Shown piece by piece: positions 41,412 through 52,301 of a stretch of 60,112 nt of DNA. Position numbers and translations under genes: made by a program. The DNA is from Candidatus Coproplasma excrementigallinarum (GTDB lineage Bacteria; Bacillota; Clostridia; Christensenellales; Borkfalkiaceae), in assembly GCA_018714625.1 (NCBI GenBank), contig DVNE01000011.1, positions 1 through 60,112 of the forward strand, in the 5' to 3' direction. The notes beneath the pieces were generated by a model, which was not told the origin of the DNA, ran no database searches, and was given only the letters and a program-made list of their open reading frames with translations. Positions within the stretch are counted from its first letter, which is position 1, and each line of letters begins with the position of its first letter.

Positions 41412-43721
41412 TCAGCCTTTTAATCCTGCAACCGCATTATAGAGCGGCGAATTCTTCAGATCGGTTTTTACGCCGCGGTAGATGGTGAGCCTGCCCTCTT
41501 CAAACGAGATGAGCGAAAGCTGTTCGAACACCCTTAGAGCAAACAGCATCTGCGCAACGCCGAACTGCATGCCCGCAGAAAATGCGACTTCCTCCGCCGA
41601 AGCGCCCTCGACCTGGCCTGCGTTGGAGGAGAGCCAGGCAAAGATTTTTAAAAGACCCTGGCGCGAACTGTCCAGCGAGCGCAGCGGGCCAAGCCCTTCG
41701 GTATCCGAGCAGACGACTACCTCCTTCCCCGCCGCAGAGGCAAAGGTGATTTTAAGCGGTCTATCGAGCCAGACAATGCGCCTGTAACCCGAGAGGTCGC
41801 AGTCGGCGCGCGGCGCGATAAGTATGGTATCGGCAAGGCTCTTTGCGGAGAGATTGAATATATCCGCAAAAAATTTACCGCTGTTTGCGTACTTTGAGAG
41901 CGTGGAATAGTCTTCGGCTATATAGAGCGTGCCGTAGCCCGCGCCCTCCGCCATCATTTTATCTATCTCCGCCCGCGTTTTATAGTTGACGGTGCAGGCA
42001 ACTTCCTCGCCGGCGGCACGCAGAACGGCATTTGCCGATATGTAGTCGCCTGCGCATGCGCCGCAGTCCGAACTGTATATGACGTCGCGCACAAAGCCGC
42101 GGATATACTCCCTGCCGCGGAAACGCGAGATATTGTATTCAAATACCAGCTCCTTTTCGCAGTCGCAGGAGAGAACCTCGGCATTTTTTATTCCGCCGAA
42201 GTACATCATTTCCAGACCGCCGCACCTGAAAGTGAGGTGCGGAGAGAGCTGCTTGAGCCTGCGCGGTTTGCAGGCGCGCACTTTGGCGCTGAACAGAGGG
42301 CGCTTGTTGCCTACGCCGTAAGGCTCGAACATCTCGAGCTCGCGCGCAAGTCGGGCGGTATTTTCGCCCTCGGCCATACCGCTCACAAATATCGTCGGAA
42401 CGAAATCCTCGGCGGTGTAGTTCTTTTCCATATATTCGGAGAGCGCCTTTTCAAGGAGGGGGAAATTTTCCTCAGTGACGTTTACGCCCGCCGCCTGCGA
42501 GTGGCCGCCGAATTCGCTTATATATTGGCTGCACGCCTTGAGGGCTTCGAAGATGTTTACCCCCTCTATGCTGCGCGCCGAACCCTTGAGTACGCCGCCG
42601 TTGTTGACAAAAAGTATGACGGGACGGCTGTATTCCTCGGCAAGACGAGCGGCGACTATGCCCACAAAGCCGGAATTCCAGCTTTCGTCCCACAGCATTA
42701 TAATTCTGCCGTAGGCGCCGCTCACCGCAAGTTTTGCCTTGGCCTGGGCGTAGAGTTCGTCACACCTGAGCTGACGCTCCTGATTGTATGAGGTGAGGCG
42801 GGAAGCAAGGTCGAATACGGCCTTTTCGTCCGTTTCGGAAAAGAGCGCAAGCGCGGACGAGGCGTCGCCCATTCTGCCCGCGGCATTGACCTTTGGCGCG
42901 ATTGTAAAGGCGAGCGTGTGCGCGTCTGCCTGCTCCTGCGTCCTTGAAAGAAAGTAAGAAAAACTCTTGCGGGGCGAGGTATTTACAAGCTTAAGGCCTT
43001 CAGCCACTATGTCGCGGTTTTCGCCCATCAGGGGAACGCTGTCCGCAACTGTGGCGAGCGCGGCGAAGTCGAGATACTTATAAGCCTCCCGACCGTTGAG
43101 CGCGCAAGCCGTTTTGAACGCAACGCCCGCGCCGCAGAGGTTATCGTAGGGGTAACTATCGTTAAATTTGGGGTTTATACATATGCAATCTGGCAGTTTT
43201 TCGGGCAGCTCGTGGTGGTCGGTGACTATCACCTCGCACCCGCACTCCTTCAGATATTCGACTTCGGCCGCATTGGATATGCCGCAGTCGACGGTGATTA
43301 CGAGCTGAGGAAAAAAATCTTCAAAAATCTCGTCTATCGCCGTAACCGTCACGCCGTAACCGCTCTTGCGCTCGGGCACGAAGACCTTTGGCTCTATGCC
43401 GAAGTCCCTCAACGCGCCGCCCATTATGGTGGCCGCGCATATGCCGTCGGCATCGTAGTCGCCGTAGACAAGCACGTCCCACCCTTCGTCGCGGGCGCGG
43501 GTTATAAGCTCGCACGCCTCCTTCATTCCCTGCATTTTGAAGGGGGAAATGAAGTGCGACTTTGAGGGATAAATGAACGCCTGGACCTTTTCGGGCGTGT
43601 CTATGCCCCTGCCGTAGAGAATGGACGCCGATGTGCGCGTGAGCGAACAGCTTGCCGCAAGTTTTTCTATCTGATTGAGTTGTTCCGCCGAAAATTCAAA
43701 TTCCGGTAAAATTCTCTTCAT
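41412..43721 (-). CDS. recJ: Single-stranded-DNA-specific exonuclease RecJ
   Basis: A 769-residue 5'-3' exonuclease used in recombination and mismatch repair. The DHH domain shows YGDYDADGICAA, VDCGISN and VTDHHELPEKLP. The DHHA1 domain follows, with NNGGVLKGSARSIEGVNIFE and FGGHSQAAGV. About 180 extra C-terminal residues form the extension found in Firmicutes RecJ. The ATG at 43721 is used; a GTG/ATG frame upstream adds ten residues without conservation. The ribosome binding site is weak. A promoter lies about 60 bases upstream. recJ precedes rel. Confidence 0.95.
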   Translation of the reverse strand: MKRILPEFEFSAEQLNQIEKLAASCSLTRTSASILYGRGIDTPEKVQAFIYPSKSHFISPFKMQGMKEACELITRARDEGWDVLVYGDYDADGICAATIMGGALRDFGIEPKVFVPERKSGYGVTVTAIDEIFEDFFPQLVITVDCGISNAAEVEYLKECGCEVIVTDHHELPEKLPDCICINPKFNDSYPYDNLCGAGVAFKTACALNGREAYKYLDFAALATVADSVPLMGENRDIVAEGLKLVNTSPRKSFSYFLSRTQEQADAHTLAFTIAPKVNAAGRMGDASSALALFSETDEKAVFDLASRLTSYNQERQLRCDELYAQAKAKLAVSGAYGRIIMLWDESWNSGFVGIVAARLAEEYSRPVILFVNNGGVLKGSARSIEGVNIFEALKACSQYISEFGGHSQAAGVNVTEENFPLLEKALSEYMEKNYTAEDFVPTIFVSGMAEGENTARLARELEMFEPYGVGNKRPLFSAKVRACKPRRLKQLSPHLTFRCGGLEMMYFGGIKNAEVLSCDCEKELVFEYNISRFRGREYIRGFVRDVIYSSDCGACAGDYISANAVLRAAGEEVACTVNYKTRAEIDKMMAEGAGYGTLYIAEDYSTLSKYANSGKFFADIFNLSAKSLADTILIAPRADCDLSGYRRIVWLDRPLKITFASAAGKEVVVCSDTEGLGPLRSLDSSRQGLLKIFAWLSSNAGQVEGASAEEVAFSAGMQFGVAQMLFALRVFEQLSLISFEEGRLTIYRGVKTDLKNSPLYNAVAGLKG

Positions 43722-43777
43722 TGCAACGTGCGCGGCGGAAAACCGCCGCATTATGACCTTATAAGTGTATTTTTTAT

Positions 43778-43806
43778 ATTATACCGCAAAACGCCGCAAA
43801 ATACAA
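43778..43806 (-). promoter_or_regulatory. Sigma-A-type promoter of recJ
   Basis: On the minus strand TTGTAT (43806-43801), 17 bases, TATAAT (43783-43778). The -35 box abuts the preceding terminator. Confidence 0.7.
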
Positions 43807-43834
43807 TAAAAGGCGAGGTAAAAACCTCGCCTTT
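43807..43834 (-). terminator. Terminator of the secD-secF operon
   Basis: An 11-bp stem AAAGGCGAGGT (43809-43819) with ACCTCGCCTTT (43824-43834). On the minus strand it runs into TATTGTATTTT, which also carries the recJ -35 box. It is about 240 bases past secF. Confidence 0.8.
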
Positions 43835-44076
43835 GAAATATTTTTGTATTGTTTGTTAGCATTTAAAACTTTTTTATGCAAACTTTGCCTGAATTAAAAA
43901 AGTTATTGCCACTTAAAGCCTTTCAGTTGAAACCGATTTTAAATCGTCGGCCGATTAAGGACAAATCTTTGACAAGCTATGCCGTCAACCGTTTATTCCG
44001 ACTTCAGAGCTTTATACTTGCCCCTATGCCACAGCTTTAATGCCTGCGACTTTTTTTAGTTCAGCGAAAGAGTAAA

Positions 44077-45084
44077 TTATTCAGCCTTTTCAGCTTTTTT
44101 TGCGCCCTGGTACTTTACTGCCTTTGCAGCCGCGTAATTATCTGCGCGAAGCTTGAGGCGGGAATATATCGAGGGAACAAAGAACATTGTGCCATACTCG
44201 CCAACGACAGCAGCTATGAGCGCGGTTGCGCAAATCATGAACAGACTGTAAATGCTGAACGAACCTACCGTAGTGAGTACGAGCATTATGACAGCCGCAA
44301 CGGCAAGTACTCCATAAAAAAGCGTAACGAGCGGGAAGCTTTCACGCGCGGCGGTATCTACCTGGTCGAAGGAAGGCATTGCCTTGAAGTCGTCCTTCTT
44401 GGCGCCCTTGCGCATCTTGTCGAAGAATACTGCGCAGCCTATCATGGTTGCAAGCACAACGAATACCGAAAGCGCAACTACCGACACCGAAACCTGAACC
44501 CTTGTTATGGCAAGCAACGCATAGAAGAGAGCAAGGTTGTGAATATCGCCGATAAACGCAGCTATTGCCATGGTGAGCTTGTACCTTATGAAGAAGTACA
44601 GGAACTGGAACACAACGGCTGCCGCAAGAGCTATGCCTGCATACAGTATATCGTCTGAACCGCCGAGAATTGTTTCGTATTCAGAGTAATAAGCCGAACC
44701 GAGGTAGCCGCTTTCGCCGCCCTCCATGCCTACCTGAGAGTTGATTGCTGAAGCAGCAGTTTTGAGAGCCGCAGTATCTTCGGAGGTTGCAAACCTGTAC
44801 TCGATTTCGTGACCGGCGGAAGAGTTATCTGCCGTTACGAAAGTGTAGTAGTCTACGCCTGCATCGTCGAAGGCTTTGTCGCTTATCTGCTGTACTTCGT
44901 CAAGGCTGAGCTGGATATCGTACTGTACCCTTACGGCCTTGTATGAGGCGTAGTTGCCGCCCCAGTTGAAGAAACCGCCTGCCGTAAACTGGCACACAAG
45001 TCCTACTGCCAGACCGACAGCCACGAGTACGCACGTTATTATTATGAAGAGATGCATTTTAGAGGAGAACCTGAACTTATTCAT
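44077..45084 (-). CDS. secF: Protein translocase subunit SecF
   Basis: A 335-residue membrane protein, second subunit of the SecDF motor that uses the proton gradient to help pull proteins through SecYEG. There is one N-terminal membrane helix (residues 10-35), an extracytoplasmic P4 domain to about residue 140, then five C-terminal helices with FIGDIHNLALFYALLAI in the place of the usual GxxHDxxxxxG region. The family signature is weak: the normal D-H-D pattern is altered. The gene overlaps secD by eight bases and ends in a lysine/glutamate-rich tail. Confidence 0.85.
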   Translation of the reverse strand: MNKFRFSSKMHLFIIITCVLVAVGLAVGLVCQFTAGGFFNWGGNYASYKAVRVQYDIQLSLDEVQQISDKAFDDAGVDYYTFVTADNSSAGHEIEYRFATSEDTAALKTAASAINSQVGMEGGESGYLGSAYYSEYETILGGSDDILYAGIALAAAVVFQFLYFFIRYKLTMAIAAFIGDIHNLALFYALLAITRVQVSVSVVALSVFVVLATMIGCAVFFDKMRKGAKKDDFKAMPSFDQVDTAARESFPLVTLFYGVLAVAAVIMLVLTTVGSFSIYSLFMICATALIAAVVGEYGTMFFVPSIYSRLKLRADNYAAAKAVKYQGAKKAEKAE

Positions 45085-46627
45085 CGTCGTCGAGTACCTC
45101 CCTCTTGAAACCGCAGAATTTATATTTATCGCGCGCGGGCGACATTGTTACATACCACATAAACCTTGTGAACCAGTGGAGCACATAGGATGCGAGAGTG
45201 CCTATCATGAGGATAAGTCCACAGGCGGCAGCCTCGGTAGCGCATACGAGCGCAACTATAACGGAGATAACAACCAGCACTATGTGCAAATCAAGTACTC
45301 CCGCAATCGACTTTTTATAGCCGAGCTTTACGGATGCCTGAACTGTTCTGCCCTCCTTGGTCTCCCTTCTGATGTTTTCGAAAGCCCAGAAGTTGCTGAT
45401 TGCAAACAATGCAAGGCACAGCACACCGACAAACACGCCTGCCGTTGTGAGCGTAAGTCCTACAAGATATACGATGGCCACCATTGCCGATGCGAAGAGC
45501 AGCAGCATAAGCGCAAACGTAAGTCCGAGCTTTTTATAGCGGGCTATCGAATATACCATTGCAGCCACAAGCACCACAAGCGCGCCTATGGCAAGGAACA
45601 TTGCGGAATTTGTACCGGTTGCCGCAGTATCGTATATTACTTCGTCATACGTGTATTCCATCGAAAGGGGATTGCCCGTTGCAACGGAATTGAGTATGGC
45701 CGCATAGTTGCGCGCCGTCTCTTCGTCGTTGACCTGAATATAGAAGGTGCTCTCTGTAATCTGCGCCTCGCAGGTGAGCGAGATGACGTTTACGTCGCCT
45801 ACATAGAAGAGTATGTTGGTATCGTCAGACGCTGCCACGTCGGAAGATACGGAGGAGATTTCCTCCTTGCCCTCTTCGGTGAGGTCTACGCGCACTGCGT
45901 ACGTGCCGCCGATGCCGTAGTACGAAGCACCTTTGAACAAATCGGACACATCAGTTCTTGCGGAAAGCAGGTTGTAAGTTACCGTTGCACCCGAAGAACT
46001 TGCCGAAGACGTTACGAGATCCGTCCTGCCTATGACGGTGTTCCTGAGCGTAAGCCCGCCGCCGAGCGTAAGATAGCTTATTGCCGAGCTTGCATAGGTG
46101 AGGTCTTCGGAAAGAGCGTTGGAATCGTTGCCCGAATATGCCGCATAGGTGAAGTTGGTTGCCACCGCTACCCTTACGGCGCAGCCGTCGGCCACCGATA
46201 CCGAGTATGAGGAAAGACGTCTGCCGGCAAACCTTGCGGATATAATCTCAGCATCGCTCTTCACGTCTTTTGCGAGAAGACTGAAGGCTTCGGTCTGATT
46301 ATCCGAATAGGCTGCAAGCACATCCTTGTCCACATAGTACGCGCCGCTTGCAGAGGCAACGTAGGTATCCTTGTATTCGGCCGCCTGCTCTTCGTTCTCC
46401 GTATCAGATACGGTGAAGTCGTATTCGTCGGCGGTAATTACTCCCTCGGGAAGAAGGGTTGCGTATGCGTCGCCCGAAAGATCGCTGCCGAGATGTATGG
46501 CTGAGAGCATGGAATTATACCTATGCACGCCGTCGGGCAGGGCGCAGGATACCACTCCGAAAAAGAAGAGCACCAGCGTTGCGAGAGCGACTATTGTTGT
46601 TACTATGGCAGATTTGATTTTGCCCAT
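45077..46627 (-). CDS. secD: Protein translocase subunit SecD (divergent)
   Basis: A 516-residue membrane protein, partner of SecF. One N-terminal helix (about 7-30) precedes a periplasmic-type domain of about 320 residues with TLGGGLTLRNTVIG and TYAVRVDLTEEGKEE, which recalls the P1 domain of SecD. Five more helices follow from about residue 340. The conserved helix motif of canonical SecD, LNxxAxLTLPGIAG with D, is not evident; LTLTTAGVFVGVLCL stands in its place. The gene order yajC-SCIFF-secD-secF supports the identity. AAGGAG is seven bases before the ATG and a promoter lies 70 bases upstream. Confidence 0.82.
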   Translation of the reverse strand: MGKIKSAIVTTIVALATLVLFFFGVVSCALPDGVHRYNSMLSAIHLGSDLSGDAYATLLPEGVITADEYDFTVSDTENEEQAAEYKDTYVASASGAYYVDKDVLAAYSDNQTEAFSLLAKDVKSDAEIISARFAGRRLSSYSVSVADGCAVRVAVATNFTYAAYSGNDSNALSEDLTYASSAISYLTLGGGLTLRNTVIGRTDLVTSSASSSGATVTYNLLSARTDVSDLFKGASYYGIGGTYAVRVDLTEEGKEEISSVSSDVAASDDTNILFYVGDVNVISLTCEAQITESTFYIQVNDEETARNYAAILNSVATGNPLSMEYTYDEVIYDTAATGTNSAMFLAIGALVVLVAAMVYSIARYKKLGLTFALMLLLFASAMVAIVYLVGLTLTTAGVFVGVLCLALFAISNFWAFENIRRETKEGRTVQASVKLGYKKSIAGVLDLHIVLVVISVIVALVCATEAAACGLILMIGTLASYVLHWFTRFMWYVTMSPARDKYKFCGFKREVLDDDE

Positions 46628-46697
46628 CTGCGTTCTCCTTATCGTTTAAGGGGCGGTTTTTGCCGCCGATTAAAAATAAACGAAAATTAACTACTTT

Positions 46698-46726
46698 ATT
46701 ATAGTAAAATTTGTGCGTGCCGTCAA
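46698..46726 (-). promoter_or_regulatory. Sigma-A-type promoter of secDF
   Basis: On the minus strand TTGACG (46726-46721), 17 bases, TATAAT (46703-46698). Confidence 0.75.
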
Positions 46727-46865
46727 TCAATTACTTATTTATAAAGGTAAAAATTAAATGAATTTATGCAAATTTCACTTTACAGCGCGCGCTGCGTCCG
46801 CTTTTGGGGGAGAAAGCGCTCTTTTTAAAGAAAAAAAATTTTTTACCTTTAAAGCCGCGGCCAGG

Positions 46866-48191
46866 TTACGCCTTACCGGCAATGCGCTTTTTTTCTGCAA
46901 GAATGTGCATGGCGCACTCTATGCGCTTTTTCATCATTGCGCAGGTTATGGCGTAGGGAAGCTCTATATCGCCGTTGAAGTTGTAGTTATTTGCGCTGCA
47001 CCCGCCGCTGCATATGAACTTGGCAAAGCAGTCTTTGCAGCTCTTGCGGGTGAAGAGGCAGGATTTTGCAAACCTGCCGCGTATGTCCGCGTCCAGCTTG
47101 CCCTCGTACACGTTGCCCATCAGAAATTTGCTGTTGCCCGCAAACTGGTGGCAGGGATACAGGTCGCCGTTGGGCGTAACCGAGAAATATTCGTTGCCCG
47201 CGCCGCATGCCGATACGCGCTTGGAAAGGCAGGGGCCGCCCTCCAGGTCTATATTGAAGTGGAAGAAGTTAAATCCCTTGCCCGCCCTGTACGCCGCAAG
47301 GTACTTTTCGCAGAGCACTTCGTACTCTTCAAGTATGCGGGGCAGGTGCTCCTCCCTTATCTGAAGGTCGGGTATGTCAGTCACTACGGGCTCCATCGAG
47401 ATGGAATCGAAGCCGCTGTCTGCAAGGAACATTACGTCGTTGGAGAAATCAAGGTTCTTCGCCGTGAAAGTGCCGCGGACGTAGTAGCTCTTATTGCCGC
47501 GCGTTGCAACAAAGTTTTTAATGTTCTTGAAGCATATATCAAAGCTGCCCTTGCCGTTGACCGTCTTTCTTATGGCGTCGTGCACCTCCTTCCTGCCGTC
47601 GAGAGAGAGCACTACGTTCTCCATTTCGCGGTTGAAAAAGTCGGTTGCGTCATCGCCTAAAAGCACGCCGTTGGTGGTTGTGGTGAAGAGAAACCTTTTG
47701 CCGTACTTTTCACCCTGTTCGCGCGCATATGCCACTACGTTTTTTATGGTGTTGAGGCACATCAGCGGCTCGCCGCCGAAGAAGTCGGCCTCGAGCACCC
47801 TGCGGTTGCCGCTGTTCTGTATAAGAAAATCTATGGCCTTTTTGGCAGTCTGCTCGCTCATGAACTCGCGCGAGGAGTGATAGGCGCCCTCGTCCGCGAA
47901 ACAATAGCGGCAACGAAGGTTGCAGTCGTGGCAGATATGTATGCACAGCGCCTTTACCTCATTCGATTTGACGGGATAGGCCTCGGGTTCGGGAGCGTTC
48001 AGAAGTCCCTTGCCCTCGAGGGTGTGAATATCGCGCTCAACTGCCTTTATGTCCTCTTCAGACAGAGCGGGTTTTTTGCCCTCCTCTGCAGCCTTGAGGT
48101 AGGCGGCAGTCTTTTCGTCGCATTCGTGCAGGCTTGCGCTGCCCGTATCGTATATATAGTTGTAATTTTTATAACTGAAAACGTGGATCAT
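46866..48191 (-). CDS. scfB: SCIFF radical SAM peptide maturase
   Basis: A 441-residue radical SAM/SPASM enzyme that installs thioether links in the SCIFF peptide (ranthipeptide class; the Clostridium thermocellum CteB is the studied example). The N-terminal 75 residues form a RiPP recognition-type domain. The radical SAM motif is CNLRCRYC (Cys90, 94, 97), with the GGEP motif soon after (FFGGEPLM). The SPASM region carries the auxiliary cluster cysteines, starting NGDLYPCHQFAG and ending CKDCFAKFICSGGC and CAMMKKR. ATG 48191 is chosen by the family start; the ribosome binding site is weak. The substrate gene is 128 bases upstream. Confidence 0.95.
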   Translation of the reverse strand: MIHVFSYKNYNYIYDTGSASLHECDEKTAAYLKAAEEGKKPALSEEDIKAVERDIHTLEGKGLLNAPEPEAYPVKSNEVKALCIHICHDCNLRCRYCFADEGAYHSSREFMSEQTAKKAIDFLIQNSGNRRVLEADFFGGEPLMCLNTIKNVVAYAREQGEKYGKRFLFTTTTNGVLLGDDATDFFNREMENVVLSLDGRKEVHDAIRKTVNGKGSFDICFKNIKNFVATRGNKSYYVRGTFTAKNLDFSNDVMFLADSGFDSISMEPVVTDIPDLQIREEHLPRILEEYEVLCEKYLAAYRAGKGFNFFHFNIDLEGGPCLSKRVSACGAGNEYFSVTPNGDLYPCHQFAGNSKFLMGNVYEGKLDADIRGRFAKSCLFTRKSCKDCFAKFICSGGCSANNYNFNGDIELPYAITCAMMKKRIECAMHILAEKKRIAGKA

Positions 48192-48203
48192 ACTTAAATT
48201 TTT

Positions 48204-48307
48204 CTGACCCGCACGCGCAGAGCGCGCTGCGGGCATATAAAATTCCGCGCCCTGTACGCGCGGAATTTTTGGCAAATTTTAAGGAGCAGAGAAACTTTCT
48301 GCTCCTT
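48204..48307 (-). promoter_or_regulatory. Three successive hairpins between scfA and scfB
   Basis: Read on the minus strand in order: AAGGAGCAGA/TCTGCTCCTT (48307-48298 with 48290-48281), GCGGAATTTT/AAAATTCCGC (48269-48258 with 48250-48239), and the GC-rich CCCGCAGCGCGC/GCGCGTGCGGG (about 48234-48210). The first two have partial T runs. They fill the space between precursor and maturase. They likely cut down maturase expression, stabilise the peptide mRNA, or both. Confidence 0.6.
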
Positions 48308-48319
48308 TCTGATGAAGAT

Positions 48320-48478
48320 TTACTTAGTTTCTTTATCGGGTCTTTCTTCTCTTGTAATTCTTTCGCAGCTCTGGTTACCCACGGTGCAGCTTGTTTTGCA
48401 GGCCGACTGGCAGGTGCTTCTGCATTCGCCGCAGCCGCTTATCTTTCTTTCTGAAGGTTTGGCAATTGTTTTTATCAT
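48320..48478 (-). CDS. scfA: SCIFF ranthipeptide precursor (six cysteines in forty-five residues)
   Basis: A 52-residue precursor peptide, short enough to be missed by gene callers. Cysteines are at residues 16, 19, 23, 27, 31 and 38, with the family core CQSACKTSCTVGNQSCE at 23-39. The residues before are the leader (MIKTIAKPSERKISG). AAGGAG lies twelve bases before the ATG and a consensus-like promoter stands upstream. The maturase gene follows. In the known system the enzyme forms a Cys-to-Thr alpha-carbon thioether in this core. The 13-residue extension RITREERPDKETK after the last conserved Glu is longer than in most SCIFF peptides I remember. The natural role of SCIFF is unknown. Confidence 0.97.
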   Translation of the reverse strand: MIKTIAKPSERKISGCGECRSTCQSACKTSCTVGNQSCERITREERPDKETK

Positions 48479-48515
48479 AACAAAGTACGCTCCTTAATTA
48501 GATTGCTTTTTATAT

Positions 48516-48544
48516 ATTATAAAATATGGTAGAAGAAAAATCAA
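48516..48544 (-). promoter_or_regulatory. Sigma-A-type promoter of scfA
   Basis: On the minus strand TTGATT (48544-48539), 17 bases, TATAAT (48521-48516), 38 bases before the scfA ATG. Confidence 0.75.
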
Positions 48545-48691
48545 GCGATTTTACTGTATTTCCGCATAATGCGGGCAGTTTTAAGCGCGACTGCGCATTT
48601 TGCGCACGGCAAACGACAAACCGCCTTTATGCGCGGCAAATGCTGCATTTGAACACAGAGCGCAACCGCATACGACAAAAACAATCCGCGC

Positions 48692-49060
48692 CTAACCCTT
48701 GCGCTTTATGTTTACGCCTATCGCGCCGCCTATCGCACCCGCGAGAGCGCCAAGGGCTATCTCTGCGGCGAAGAGCGCGCTTACAGCAAACGAGCCTGAT
48801 ATTGCCGAAAAAAGCAGATAGGTTGCAACTACCGAAAGAACGCCCGCGATTGCGCCCTTTATAAGCCCGCGGCCTCCCCTTACGAAGAGAAGACAGCCTG
48901 CGGCTATGCACAGCGTTTTGATTGCCTGGTTTACAGGCTTAACCGCGGCAGAAGAGAGAGAAAACAACTGTATTATCAAAGAGAACACCAGTACGCAGGC
49001 AAGGCAGAATATGACCGCGGCCAGCACCGCCCTGAGTACCTGAAAAATATTATCGCGCAT
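48692..49060 (-). CDS. TIGR04086-type small membrane protein
   Basis: A 122-residue protein with four hydrophobic helices and Gly/Ala-rich helix faces (GGRGLIKGAIAGVLSVVATYL, then a second helix near GALAGAIGGAIG). It ends in basic residues. The family TIGR04086 (YrzE-like), as I recall, is repeatedly found next to yajC and SCIFF genes in Clostridia; the role is unknown. GGAGG stands seven bases before the ATG but lies in the 3' arm of a hairpin, so initiation may need unfolding. Confidence 0.82.
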   Translation of the reverse strand: MRDNIFQVLRAVLAAVIFCLACVLVFSLIIQLFSLSSAAVKPVNQAIKTLCIAAGCLLFVRGGRGLIKGAIAGVLSVVATYLLFSAISGSFAVSALFAAEIALGALAGAIGGAIGVNIKRKG

Positions 49061-49066
49061 AACAAA

Positions 49067-49095
49067 ACCTCCGCACAGTTAACCTATGCGGAGGT
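49067..49095 (-). terminator. Hairpin that both ends yajC and hides a ribosome binding site
   Basis: ACCTCCGCA (49095-49087 on the minus strand) pairs with TGCGGAGGT (49075-49067) and is followed by TTTGTT. It looks like a terminator, but the GGAGG of its 3' arm is the Shine-Dalgarno of the next gene, whose ATG is at 49060. Confidence 0.7.
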
Positions 49096-49170
49096 ATGAT
49101 TTTTTATGATAGTATATGCGCCGACAATTTGACATTGCCGCACTTGCCCGAAAGTTACGCCAAAGAAAAA

Positions 49171-49665
49171 TTACTTATTCTCTTCAGTCTTTTCCTTTGC
49201 GTCCTCTGCCTTTTCCTCGGTCTTTTCATCGGAGGAGGCAGTCTCTTCAAAGGGTTCAGCCGCGGGAGCTTCCTCTTTGGTTTCGGTTGCTTCTGCCTTT
49301 TCGGGCTCTTCCTTCTTGTCTACTACTGCGTCGGTCTGGTAGATGGCCTGCTTATCGAACTTCATGTAGCACTTGCCGGTAGTTTCGGAACCGGTTTCAA
49401 GCACGAAAGTGTTTTCTTCAGGGTCAACCTCTACAACTATGCCGCACACGCCGCCTATCGTCTTGACCTTGTTGCCGGGCTTTACTGCGTTCATGAGCTC
49501 CTCGGCTTCCTGCTGCTTCTTTTTGTTCCTGCGGGAAGAAAATACGAAGAACACAACGATTATGACGACAAATACCGCCAACAGAATTATCATGGGGAGC
49601 TGGTCGAGCAGAGAACCGCCATTGCTTCCGCTCTCGCTGCTGCTTGAAAGTAACATTGCCAACAT
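49171..49665 (-). CDS. yajC: Preprotein translocase subunit YajC
   Basis: A 164-residue bitopic membrane protein associated with SecDF. Residues 24-43 form the single helix (MIILLAVFVVIIVVFFVFSS), followed by the family motif RRNKKKQQEAEELMNAVKPG and GNKVKTIGGVCGIV. The family normally ends near residue 105; here about 55 further residues are nearly all Glu, Ala, Lys and Thr. This acidic, low-complexity extension is unusual for the family. AAGGAG lies 12 bases before the ATG. Confidence 0.93.
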   Translation of the reverse strand: MLAMLLSSSSESGSNGGSLLDQLPMIILLAVFVVIIVVFFVFSSRRNKKKQQEAEELMNAVKPGNKVKTIGGVCGIVVEVDPEENTFVLETGSETTGKCYMKFDKQAIYQTDAVVDKKEEPEKAEATETKEEAPAAEPFEETASSDEKTEEKAEDAKEKTEENK

Positions 49666-49720
49666 GACTTACTTTTACTCCTTGAATTAGCTTGCTTTGT
49701 AAAATTTAGTTTACTACAAT

Positions 49721-49749
49721 ACTATAACCTTTTTTAAAAGATAATGCAA
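49721..49749 (-). promoter_or_regulatory. Sigma-A-type promoter of yajC
   Basis: On the minus strand TTGCAT (49749-49744), 17 bases, TATAGT (49726-49721). The remaining bases up to the tgt stop (49750-49951) hold nothing recognisable. Confidence 0.65.
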
Positions 49750-49951
49750 GCATTTTTTAACTTTAATATATGCCGCTTAAAAACTTTCACCCCGTTTTCA
49801 AATAAAATCGCGCATTTTCGCCATTTTATTACAGGAAGTGCAGCCTTACCGTGCATAAAGTTTCCCTTTGAAACGCGCCGCGCCGAGGTGCAAAGTTTTT
49901 CTGCATTGCTCTTTAAAAAACGGCATAAATTAAATTTTTATTTGTGCATTA

Positions 49952-51094
<1,143 letters not shown>

Positions 51095-51239
51095 TTATTC
51101 AGTATAAAAAAGTGGCTGACCCCTTTTCGCGCCGACAAAAAGACACTCGGCGCGGACATTCTGTTGACGGGCAGGTTTTAAGTTGCGCAACAATAAAACG
51201 CTTAAAGCGGAAATTCCAGACCAAAATAAAAACAAGTTT

Positions 51240-52301
51240 TCAGAGAATGAGCATTGCGTCGCCGAAAGAGAAGAACCTGTACTTCTCCTCCACTGCAATG
51301 TTGTACAGCTCAAGAATTTTTTCTCTGCCGACCATGGCTGCAACAAGCATTATGAGCGTGCTTTCGGGCAGGTGGAAATTGGTTATGAGGCAATCGACGC
51401 ACTTGAACTTATAGGGCGGATATATAAATATTGAGGTGTTGCCGCGGCAGGGGCTGAGAGTTCCGTCTTCGGCGGCGGCGCTTTCAAGCGTGCGCACCGA
51501 GGTAGTGCCTACGGCTATGACCCTGCGCCCTTCACGCTTGGCGCGGTTGATTATGTCGGCCGCGCTCTGGCTCACCTCGAAATATTCGCTGTGCATCTTG
51601 TGGTCGGTGACCGCGTCCTCCTTTACGGGACGGAACGTACCCAGGCCGACGTGCAGCAGTACTTCCGCCACTTCCACGCCCATGTCCTTTATCTCCTGCA
51701 AAAGCTGGGGCGTAAAGTGCAGACCGGCTGTGGGCGCTGCCGCAGAGCCGTCCGTCTTGGCGTACACCGTCTGATAGCGGTTTTTATCCTTGAGCTTTTC
51801 ATGAATGTACGGAGGGAGCGGCATAGAACCTACGCGCTCGAGAGCCTCTTCAAACACGCCCTCGCACTCGAAATCGACTATCCTTTCGCCGCTCTCGGTC
51901 ACGGAACTGACGGTGAGCGAAAGTCCTTCGTCCACCACAAGGTGTGTGCCCGGCCTGCATTTTTTGCCGGGCTTTACTAGTACCTCCCACCTGAGTGCGG
52001 ATATGCGCTTTAACAGCAGAACCTCTACCCTTCCGCCGTGCTCCGTGTGTGCATAGATGCGCGCGGGAAGTACCTTGGTGTTGTTGACGACAAGCACGTC
52101 GCCCTTTTTGAGGTAGTCCTTTATGTCGTGGAAAATTCTGTGTTCCACCCTGTCTGTCGCCCTGTTGTACACCAGCAGACGGGAGCTGTCGCGCGGCTCT
52201 GCGGGCGTCTGGGCAATGAGCTCTTCGGGGAGATTATAAAAGAAGTCGCTTTTTTTTAAGTCTGTGGGCGCGCCGTGCGCCTCTACTGTTATTTCCTGCA
52301 T
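51240..52301 (-). CDS. queA: tRNA preQ1(34) S-adenosylmethionine ribosyltransferase-isomerase
   Basis: A 353-residue enzyme that transfers the ribosyl part of SAM to preQ1 in tRNA, giving epoxyqueuosine. Signature segments: FFYNLPEELIAQTPAEPRD, NNTKVLPARIYA, AAPTAGLHFTPQLL and HVGLGTFRPVK. The N terminus has an extension of about 15 residues before the family start. An ATG closer to the family start (SDFF) is absent, so the upstream ATG at 52301 is kept. It pairs with tgt for queuosine; no preQ1 synthesis genes are in the window, so preQ1 may be salvaged. Confidence 0.96.
   Translation of the reverse strand: MQEITVEAHGAPTDLKKSDFFYNLPEELIAQTPAEPRDSSRLLVYNRATDRVEHRIFHDIKDYLKKGDVLVVNNTKVLPARIYAHTEHGGRVEVLLLKRISALRWEVLVKPGKKCRPGTHLVVDEGLSLTVSSVTESGERIVDFECEGVFEEALERVGSMPLPPYIHEKLKDKNRYQTVYAKTDGSAAAPTAGLHFTPQLLQEIKDMGVEVAEVLLHVGLGTFRPVKEDAVTDHKMHSEYFEVSQSAADIINRAKREGRRVIAVGTTSVRTLESAAAEDGTLSPCRGNTSIFIYPPYKFKCVDCLITNFHLPESTLIMLVAAMVGREKILELYNIAVEEKYRFFSFGDAMLIL

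Follow-up and report, generated by a model that had tools for sequence, protein, structure and literature searches.

The SCIFF precursor gene scfA and the maturase gene scfB are treated in the literature as a tight pair (PMC5300114). Early in-vitro work on the precursors CteA and Tte1186a reported a link from Cys32 to Thr37, whereas in CteA obtained by co-expression Cys32 is reported to be linked to Thr34, via the gamma carbon (PMC8326336; PMC8172795). In Clostridium beijerinckii, lower expression of sporulation genes and higher expression of the agr locus are described for mutants whose precursor and maturase genes were disrupted (Chen et al. 2020, as cited in PMC8102284 and PMC8326336), and altered quorum-sensing genes are likewise reported for SCIFF mutants (PMC8102284; PMC8326336). 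The view of an earlier note on this DNA that the cellular function of SCIFFs is unknown is too strong in the light of these sporulation and agr effects. A peptide arginase has been reported with SCIFFs as well (PMC12703449); the corresponding family PF12640 has no match in the genome analyzed here, and control genomes were equally without a match.

SCIFFs are common in the class, with model matches in 207 of 245 sampled genomes, in 114 of 151 genomes of the order and in 54 of the 61 genomes nearest to the one studied (sets that overlap and include it), and little is understood of their role so far. The window, i.e., the whole analyzed stretch of 60,112 nucleotides from Candidatus Coproplasma excrementigallinarum, a genus placed by NCBI in the Clostridia, Eubacteriales, carries one further pair. 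Simple tests are offered by a conserved class of tails, by an invariant acceptor threonine at the point where the two published results differ, and by a predicted promoter with a stem-loop. A 15-residue leader, a conserved hairpin before scfB and a shortened N-terminal region of ScfB go beyond what the earlier note had described.

Two collections of sequences were compared with the window, and they overlap in part. The first comprises the best 80 of 437 named ScfB relatives, a list from which the closest records may be missing. Within it, the nearest relatives are uncultured Clostridia bins with up to 90% identity, ScfB of Candidatus Coproplasma reaches 89%, and Candidatus Gallimonas, the next named genus in the list, follows at 72%. 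The second consists of sampled genomes, from which the DNA of 238 loci was read and a cysteine pattern gave a peptide in 235 (the others being L055 and L178, with weak or cut matches, and L198). The 89 peptides of the class outside the order stem from the best-scoring 30, 10 hand-picked genomes and 49 of 52 weak-end genomes (of the other three, two contributed no sequence and one had no match to the cysteine pattern). The middle of the ranking is thinly sampled, and relatives of the window are over-represented by design.

The scfA-scfB pair

The genes and peptide parts are as follows.

48320..48478, minus strand: scfA, SCIFF precursor, 52 residues and stop (translation and family models)
48434..48478, minus strand: leader, residues 1-15, MIKTIAKPSERKISG (translation; the strand IKTI presumably binds the RRE, by the reported homology to CteA)
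48365..48433, minus strand: core, residues 16-38, with six cysteines (translation; a Cys27-Thr29 thioether is expected by homology to CteA)
48323..48364, minus strand: C-terminal tail, residues 39-52, ERITREERPDKETK (translation, conservation and selection)
46866..48191, minus strand: scfB, SCIFF maturase, 441 residues (TIGR03974, alignment with CteB and cysteine patterns)
48692..49060, minus strand: TIGR04086/DUF3792 membrane protein gene (models; a similar gene in the stretches of 73 of the best 80 of 437 relatives)
49171..49665, minus strand: yajC (models; similar in 70 of these 80 stretches)
45077..46627, minus strand: secD-like gene (69.5 bits, below the cut-off of 244; similar in 77 of these 80 stretches)
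44077..45084, minus strand: secF-like gene (59 bits, below the cut-off of 160; SecD_SecF_C above cut-off)

A recJ gene among the neighbors was named by its model, and genes read from the list of open reading frames farther upstream are presumably tgt, queA, ruvB, and ruvA.

Translation of 48320-48478 on the minus strand yields, from an ATG start, MIKTIAKPSERKISGCGECRSTCQSACKTSCTVGNQSCERITREERPDKETK followed by a stop codon, with cysteines at 16, 19, 23, 27, 31, and 38, exactly as the earlier note had read them. Profile searches scored the peptide at 56.9 bits against TIGR03973 (cut-off 50, E 1.5e-15) and at 58 bits against PF13165 (cut-off 27). As the TIGR03973 match lies above a curated cut-off, the reading frame is not a random one, and its passing both curated models confirms the proposed identity as a SCIFF precursor. 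In keeping with that family, it has six cysteines (16-38) in about 45 residues with a QSACKTSC core, and a maturase is encoded next to it in the same genome. ScfA is the sole SCIFF match in this genome, which is rated 75.7% complete.

The adjacent scfB-type maturase that had been proposed is equally well supported, with 559 bits against TIGR03974 (cut-off 425). The gene begins 128 bases downstream of scfA, and its product is the only match above the maturase cut-off in the window's genome. Both Pfam models, Radical_SAM and SPASM, score above cut-off; the radical SAM motif CxxxCxxC is present (C90/C94/C97) and the SPASM cysteines are kept (C329-x12-G342-x4-C347, C385-x2-C388-x5-C394-x3-C398, and C417). 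ScfB and CteB (5wgg) can be aligned across residues 1-433 with a score of 464 bits, and CteA/CteB is the closest studied pair. The alignment starts at residue 1, and the region ahead of the radical SAM cysteines, which would hold a putative leader-binding RRE, is 12 residues shorter than in CteB. The pair is an ordinary SCIFF ranthipeptide pair, one more in an uncultured gut genus. In two other genomes of the sample (G154 and G289, rated 99 and 98% complete), a SCIFF is present and no ScfB reaches the cut-off.

With 15 residues, the leader in the window is as long as that of every one of the best 80 of 437 named relatives, and the core is identical in all 80. A leader of 19 or 20 residues is found in 89 of the 104 SCIFFs from the order's other families and in 83 of 89 from the rest of the class. 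Across the window and the same 80 relatives, the IKTI strand is near-constant (I2 to F in 2, K3 to R in 3, and I5 to V in 11 of 81), and pN/pS is 0.04 for the core and 0.18 for the leader. By homology, the N-terminal domain of ScfB would be the docking site of the leader strand MIKTI, and this radical SAM/SPASM enzyme would link Cys27 to Thr29 by a thioether. Cys27, Thr29, and Thr32 are the equivalents of Cys32, Thr34, and Thr37 of CteA. QSACKTSC and Thr29 are kept in all 153 genus-by-core combinations, Thr32 in 122 (Gly in 30, Ala in 1), the peptides having been collected with the family model, itself weighted towards the family consensus, and with a cysteine pattern that requires no threonine. 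Since Thr29 is invariant and Thr32 can be replaced by Gly or Ala, this comparison favors Thr29 as the probable acceptor, which fits Thr34 of CteA.

Over 74 genus-level rows, the length of the ScfB N-terminal region shows a raw rank correlation of 0.48 with leader length (p 1e-5) and of -0.41 with tail length (p 3e-4), 125 of 207 ScfB rows having matched the start-and-motif pattern. Under phylogenetic contrasts (67 tips), the values are 0.23 for the leader (p 0.06) and -0.05 for the tail (p 0.71), and leader against tail gives -0.23 (p 0.07). No claim is made for co-evolution of leader or tail with the ScfB N-terminus.

The reported change of quorum-sensing genes in SCIFF mutants (PMC8326336; PMC8102284) would agree with export of ScfA as a secreted signal by a double-glycine peptidase-transporter, and GG does precede the first cysteine in 83 of the 153 genus-by-core combinations, mainly short-tailed ones. 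However, the window has SG at this place and its relatives mostly TG or TA (best 80 of 437), and a search for C39 peptidases gave no match in the genome of the window (75.7% complete). Of the genus, including this genome, 40 of 41 genomes are likewise without a match, as are all 26 of best quality. As the C39 peptidase was not found and GG is not kept, a dedicated double-glycine export route is unlikely, and the reading of ScfA as an exported signal appears quite improbable.

Promoter and stem-loops

The elements around scfA, all on the minus strand, are the following.

48516..48544, minus strand: scfA promoter, TTGATT-17-TATAAT (10 of 12 matches, kept in relatives)
48490..48495, minus strand: ribosome-binding site AAGGAG (11 bases before the ATG)
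48281..48307, minus strand: hairpin 1 in the scfA-scfB gap, 10-pair stem of the GGAGCAG/CTGCTCC type (RNA fold; in most of the relatives inspected)
48239..48269, minus strand: hairpin 2, stem of 12 pairs with AATTTT at the end of the 3' arm, without a separate T-run (RNA fold)
48207..48234, minus strand: hairpin 3, upstream of the scfB start (RNA fold)

Both the ribosome-binding site and the promoter of the earlier note were recovered, at 48495-48490 and 48544-48516, respectively. A single promoter-like site proves nothing, as a 4-kb scan gave four such sites against a shuffle mean of 3.7. The scfA promoter is accepted as real because it is shared: 67 of 79 upstream stretches carry a site that matches at 10 or more of 12 positions, where mononucleotide shuffles give a mean of 3.5, and the distance from the end of the -10 box to the ATG is 26-44 bases in 65 of these 67. 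The 79 stretches are those of the window and of 78 relatives from the best 80 of 437, two of 81 having been dropped for fewer than 100 upstream bases. The gene has a predicted promoter of its own, which is conserved.

The RNA of the scfA-scfB gap folds into three hairpins in the window (z -6.4 against dinucleotide shuffles), and at least one hairpin occurs in the minimum-energy fold of each of the 80 spacers of 42-1245 bases from the best 80 of 437 relatives, with a median z of -4.6 (mononucleotide control) and one value, -58.6 for L301, that looks artefactual. A stem matched by at most 1 of 40 dinucleotide shuffles (p<=0.025) was found in 41 of 42 rows of the family, the window included, in 34 of 69 of the order and in 41 of 62 of the class, with 34 loci left out that have fewer than 20 bases between the genes by the start rule used. 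Such a hairpin is followed by a T-rich stretch (at least four T in the next 10 bases) in 27, 25, and 31 rows, respectively. The stem is frequently GGAGCAG/CTGCTCC, and some relatives have GGGCGGA/TCCGCCC or GGCGCG/CGCGCC with the pairing kept, judged by eye and not by a covariation count. The predicted scfA-scfB stem-loop is conserved.

Other RiPP operons are known to have such stem-loops 3' of the precursor gene. The simplest reading is a partial terminator or 3' stabilizer, which would probably leave the cell with more ScfA than ScfB. In this model, scfA would be transcribed from its own promoter, the stem-loop just after it would stop or trim many of the transcripts, and ScfA would be made in excess while ScfB would arise from read-through. 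Terminator activity is uncertain, since 5 of 19 further co-directional gaps in the window also have such a stem (judged by mononucleotide shuffles on approximate gene calls, in which a wrong-strand reading frame was chosen over yajC) and a T-rich stretch follows in only 27 of 42 family rows. No known RNA family scored above its gathering threshold in 44000-51500, and no description of a stem-loop after scfA or of SCIFF tail classes was found among the open-access papers searched. A separate 12-pair hairpin at 49067-49095 on the minus strand stops six bases short of the TIGR04086 start and has GGAGG in its 3' arm; it may be a yajC terminator or mask the ribosome site.

The C-terminal tail

The tail has 14 residues after the last cysteine and 13 after the conserved Cys-Glu, and it is in the latter count that the 13-residue extension of the earlier note is found again. 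All of the best 80 of 437 named relatives have tails of 12-14 residues (12 in 18, 13 in 18, and 14 in 44), as do the six SCIFFs from other genera of the family, and the 35 SCIFFs of the genus have 13 or 14. In other families of the order, 50 of 104 tails have 3-7 residues and 54 have 12-21, most of the latter 13-15 (48 of 54). In the rest of the class, 81 of 89 have 2-9 and eight have 17-19, seven of these eight belonging to one family (f46). The tail had been presented as a novel variant. It is indeed longer than in most SCIFFs of the rest of the class, but it is common to the 80 listed relatives and to about half of the SCIFFs elsewhere in the order (54 of 104), and because many SCIFFs carry equally long tails, the novelty falls by the earlier note's own standard, a comparison of tail lengths within the family. 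The tail is real, conserved and widespread in the order, and not peculiar to this genome.

A quick ScfB tree (109 rows with ScfB of 380 residues or more, one or a few for each genus; SH-aLRT as the only measure of support, midpoint root) places the window in a group of 37 rows on a branch with SH-aLRT 99, all 37 of which are long-tailed. Over the whole tree, the tail state changes six times, against a mean of 34 with shuffled labels, and at least four changes are forced by the starred branches. These data suggest that the tail is tied to a group of ScfB maturases common to many families of the order, a pattern that may also arise merely through the joint inheritance of neighboring genes. Not on the tree are 28 loci without an adjoining ScfB, some of them at the end of a stretch or contig. 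Among these are all seven of f46 (L065, L195, L202, L203, L205, L208, and L213), which have tails of 17-18 residues and no scfB in the stretch read; ScfB above cut-off lies elsewhere in six of the seven genomes, and in the seventh two overlapping pieces stay under the cut-off.

Six families (f3, f4, f10, f16, f17, and f23) contain both tail types, and some of their short-tail ScfBs cluster with those of other orders in a group of 22 rows (SH-aLRT 100), which suggests that the scfA-scfB pair may have been replaced horizontally in these families.

Across the window and the best 80 of 437 relatives, pN/pS is 0.16 for residues 39-45 (0.04-0.26 by codon bootstrap, 800 sampled pairs), while from residue 46 to the end it is 0.44 among the 45 peptides of 52 residues, 0.19 among the 18 of 51 and 0.22 among the 18 of 50; these values are rough because silent sites are close to saturation. 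The proximal ERITRE is near-invariant, with E39, R40, and E44 in 81 of 81 peptides, R43 in 79 and T42 in 78. The protein sequence of the tail is plainly constrained, most strongly in its first half, where purifying selection is about as strong as on the leader. A random extension after a lost stop codon, kept by drift, would be in line with the repeated switching of the tail state, in which gains and losses are indistinguishable. Yet the selection on the tail, together with its retention in all 37 rows of one ScfB group and in all 80 listed relatives, disfavors such neutral read-on, which we regard as extremely improbable.

Given its conservation, the tail presumably has some task. The weaker constraint on residues 46-52 makes trimming of this distal part possible, and a protease might even remove the whole tail and leave leader and core, or the core only, as the mature product. 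For such removal speak the distal residues, the least constrained part measured (pN/pS 0.44 in the 52-residue peptides), the variable length of 12-14 residues among the best 80 of 437 relatives and the tails of 2-9 residues that are enough for 81 of 89 SCIFFs in the rest of the class. It has to be weighed against the almost unchanged ERITRE and the clustering of the order's long tails at 13-15 residues; moreover, the seven neighboring proteins (41412-49665) gave no match to a peptidase family, C39 being the only one sought beyond them. On balance, removal of the tail is rather unlikely. We infer, with about even confidence, that the tail is instead retained and has a role in recognition or stability; it would remain on the peptide and probably assist either recognition by the maturase or the product's fate.

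A more far-reaching and doubtful version, to which we give about as little credence as to removal, divides SCIFFs into a short-tailed and a long-tailed class and takes the tail as a follower element under selection, which arose in concert with its particular ScfB group and a shortened leader. If this were true, the ScfBs of long-tailed SCIFFs would read their substrate from both ends.

Two genomes (L231 in G064 and L233 in G222) encode two SCIFF units in one frame, 88-89 residues in total, with the second leader directly after the first core; for these the tail of the last unit was counted. They call to mind an origin of the tail as remnant or mimic of a second leader, perhaps by tandem duplication, whose C-terminal strand would dock on ScfB. 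Tails such as EKINTVKK do resemble leaders such as HINTIVK, 27 of the 48 genus-level long tails contain the motif [KR][IV][NHT] (500 shuffles gave 4.4 on average and 10 at most), and the 48 leader-profile p-values are shifted low as a set (KS p 0.005, for related rows). Individually, however, only 1 of the 48 tails fits the leader profile better than its shuffled versions at p<0.05 (median p 0.39, window p 0.27), and the idea is weak despite the enriched motif; a second leader is very unlikely.

Comparison with described systems

Taken together, the locus is with good probability a SCIFF operon in which scfA would have its own promoter, the stem-loop would limit ScfB, ScfB would make the Cys27-Thr29 thioether and the tail would be retained. 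Tails of 12-21 residues are a trait shared with the long-tailed SCIFFs from the order's other families and from f46, but there the tail sequences differ, often with (K/R)(I/V)(N/H/T) near tail positions 5-7, and the leaders mostly have 17-20 residues; in f46, unlike in the window, scfB does not adjoin scfA. PapA/PapB (freyrasin) is likewise reported as a ranthipeptide system with a radical SAM maturase. In contrast to ScfA, however, PapA is described with six Cys-Asp links, and ScfB stays below the cut-off of the PapB-type model NF047865 (269.9 of 340 bits).

Tte1186a/Tte1186 of Caldanaerobacter subterraneus belongs to the same SCIFF family, with a thioether reported from the fourth cysteine. 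Its acceptor is given as Thr37, in contrast to Thr34 for CteA in co-expression, and in the SCIFFs sampled here the equivalent of Thr34 is invariant while that of Thr37 is not. The closest counterpart is CteA/CteB of Clostridium thermocellum (CteB structures 5wgg and 5why), which also pairs a precursor with a six-cysteine core with an adjoining radical SAM/SPASM maturase, matched by ScfB over nearly its full length. It differs in the longer N-terminal region of CteB and in a leader expected to have 20 residues, if the reported fourth cysteine, Cys32, and a constant cysteine spacing are taken as the basis, against the 15 of ScfA; next to this pair, with the tail of CteA itself outside the comparison, ScfA is set apart by a short leader, a shortened maturase N-terminus and a 14-residue tail.
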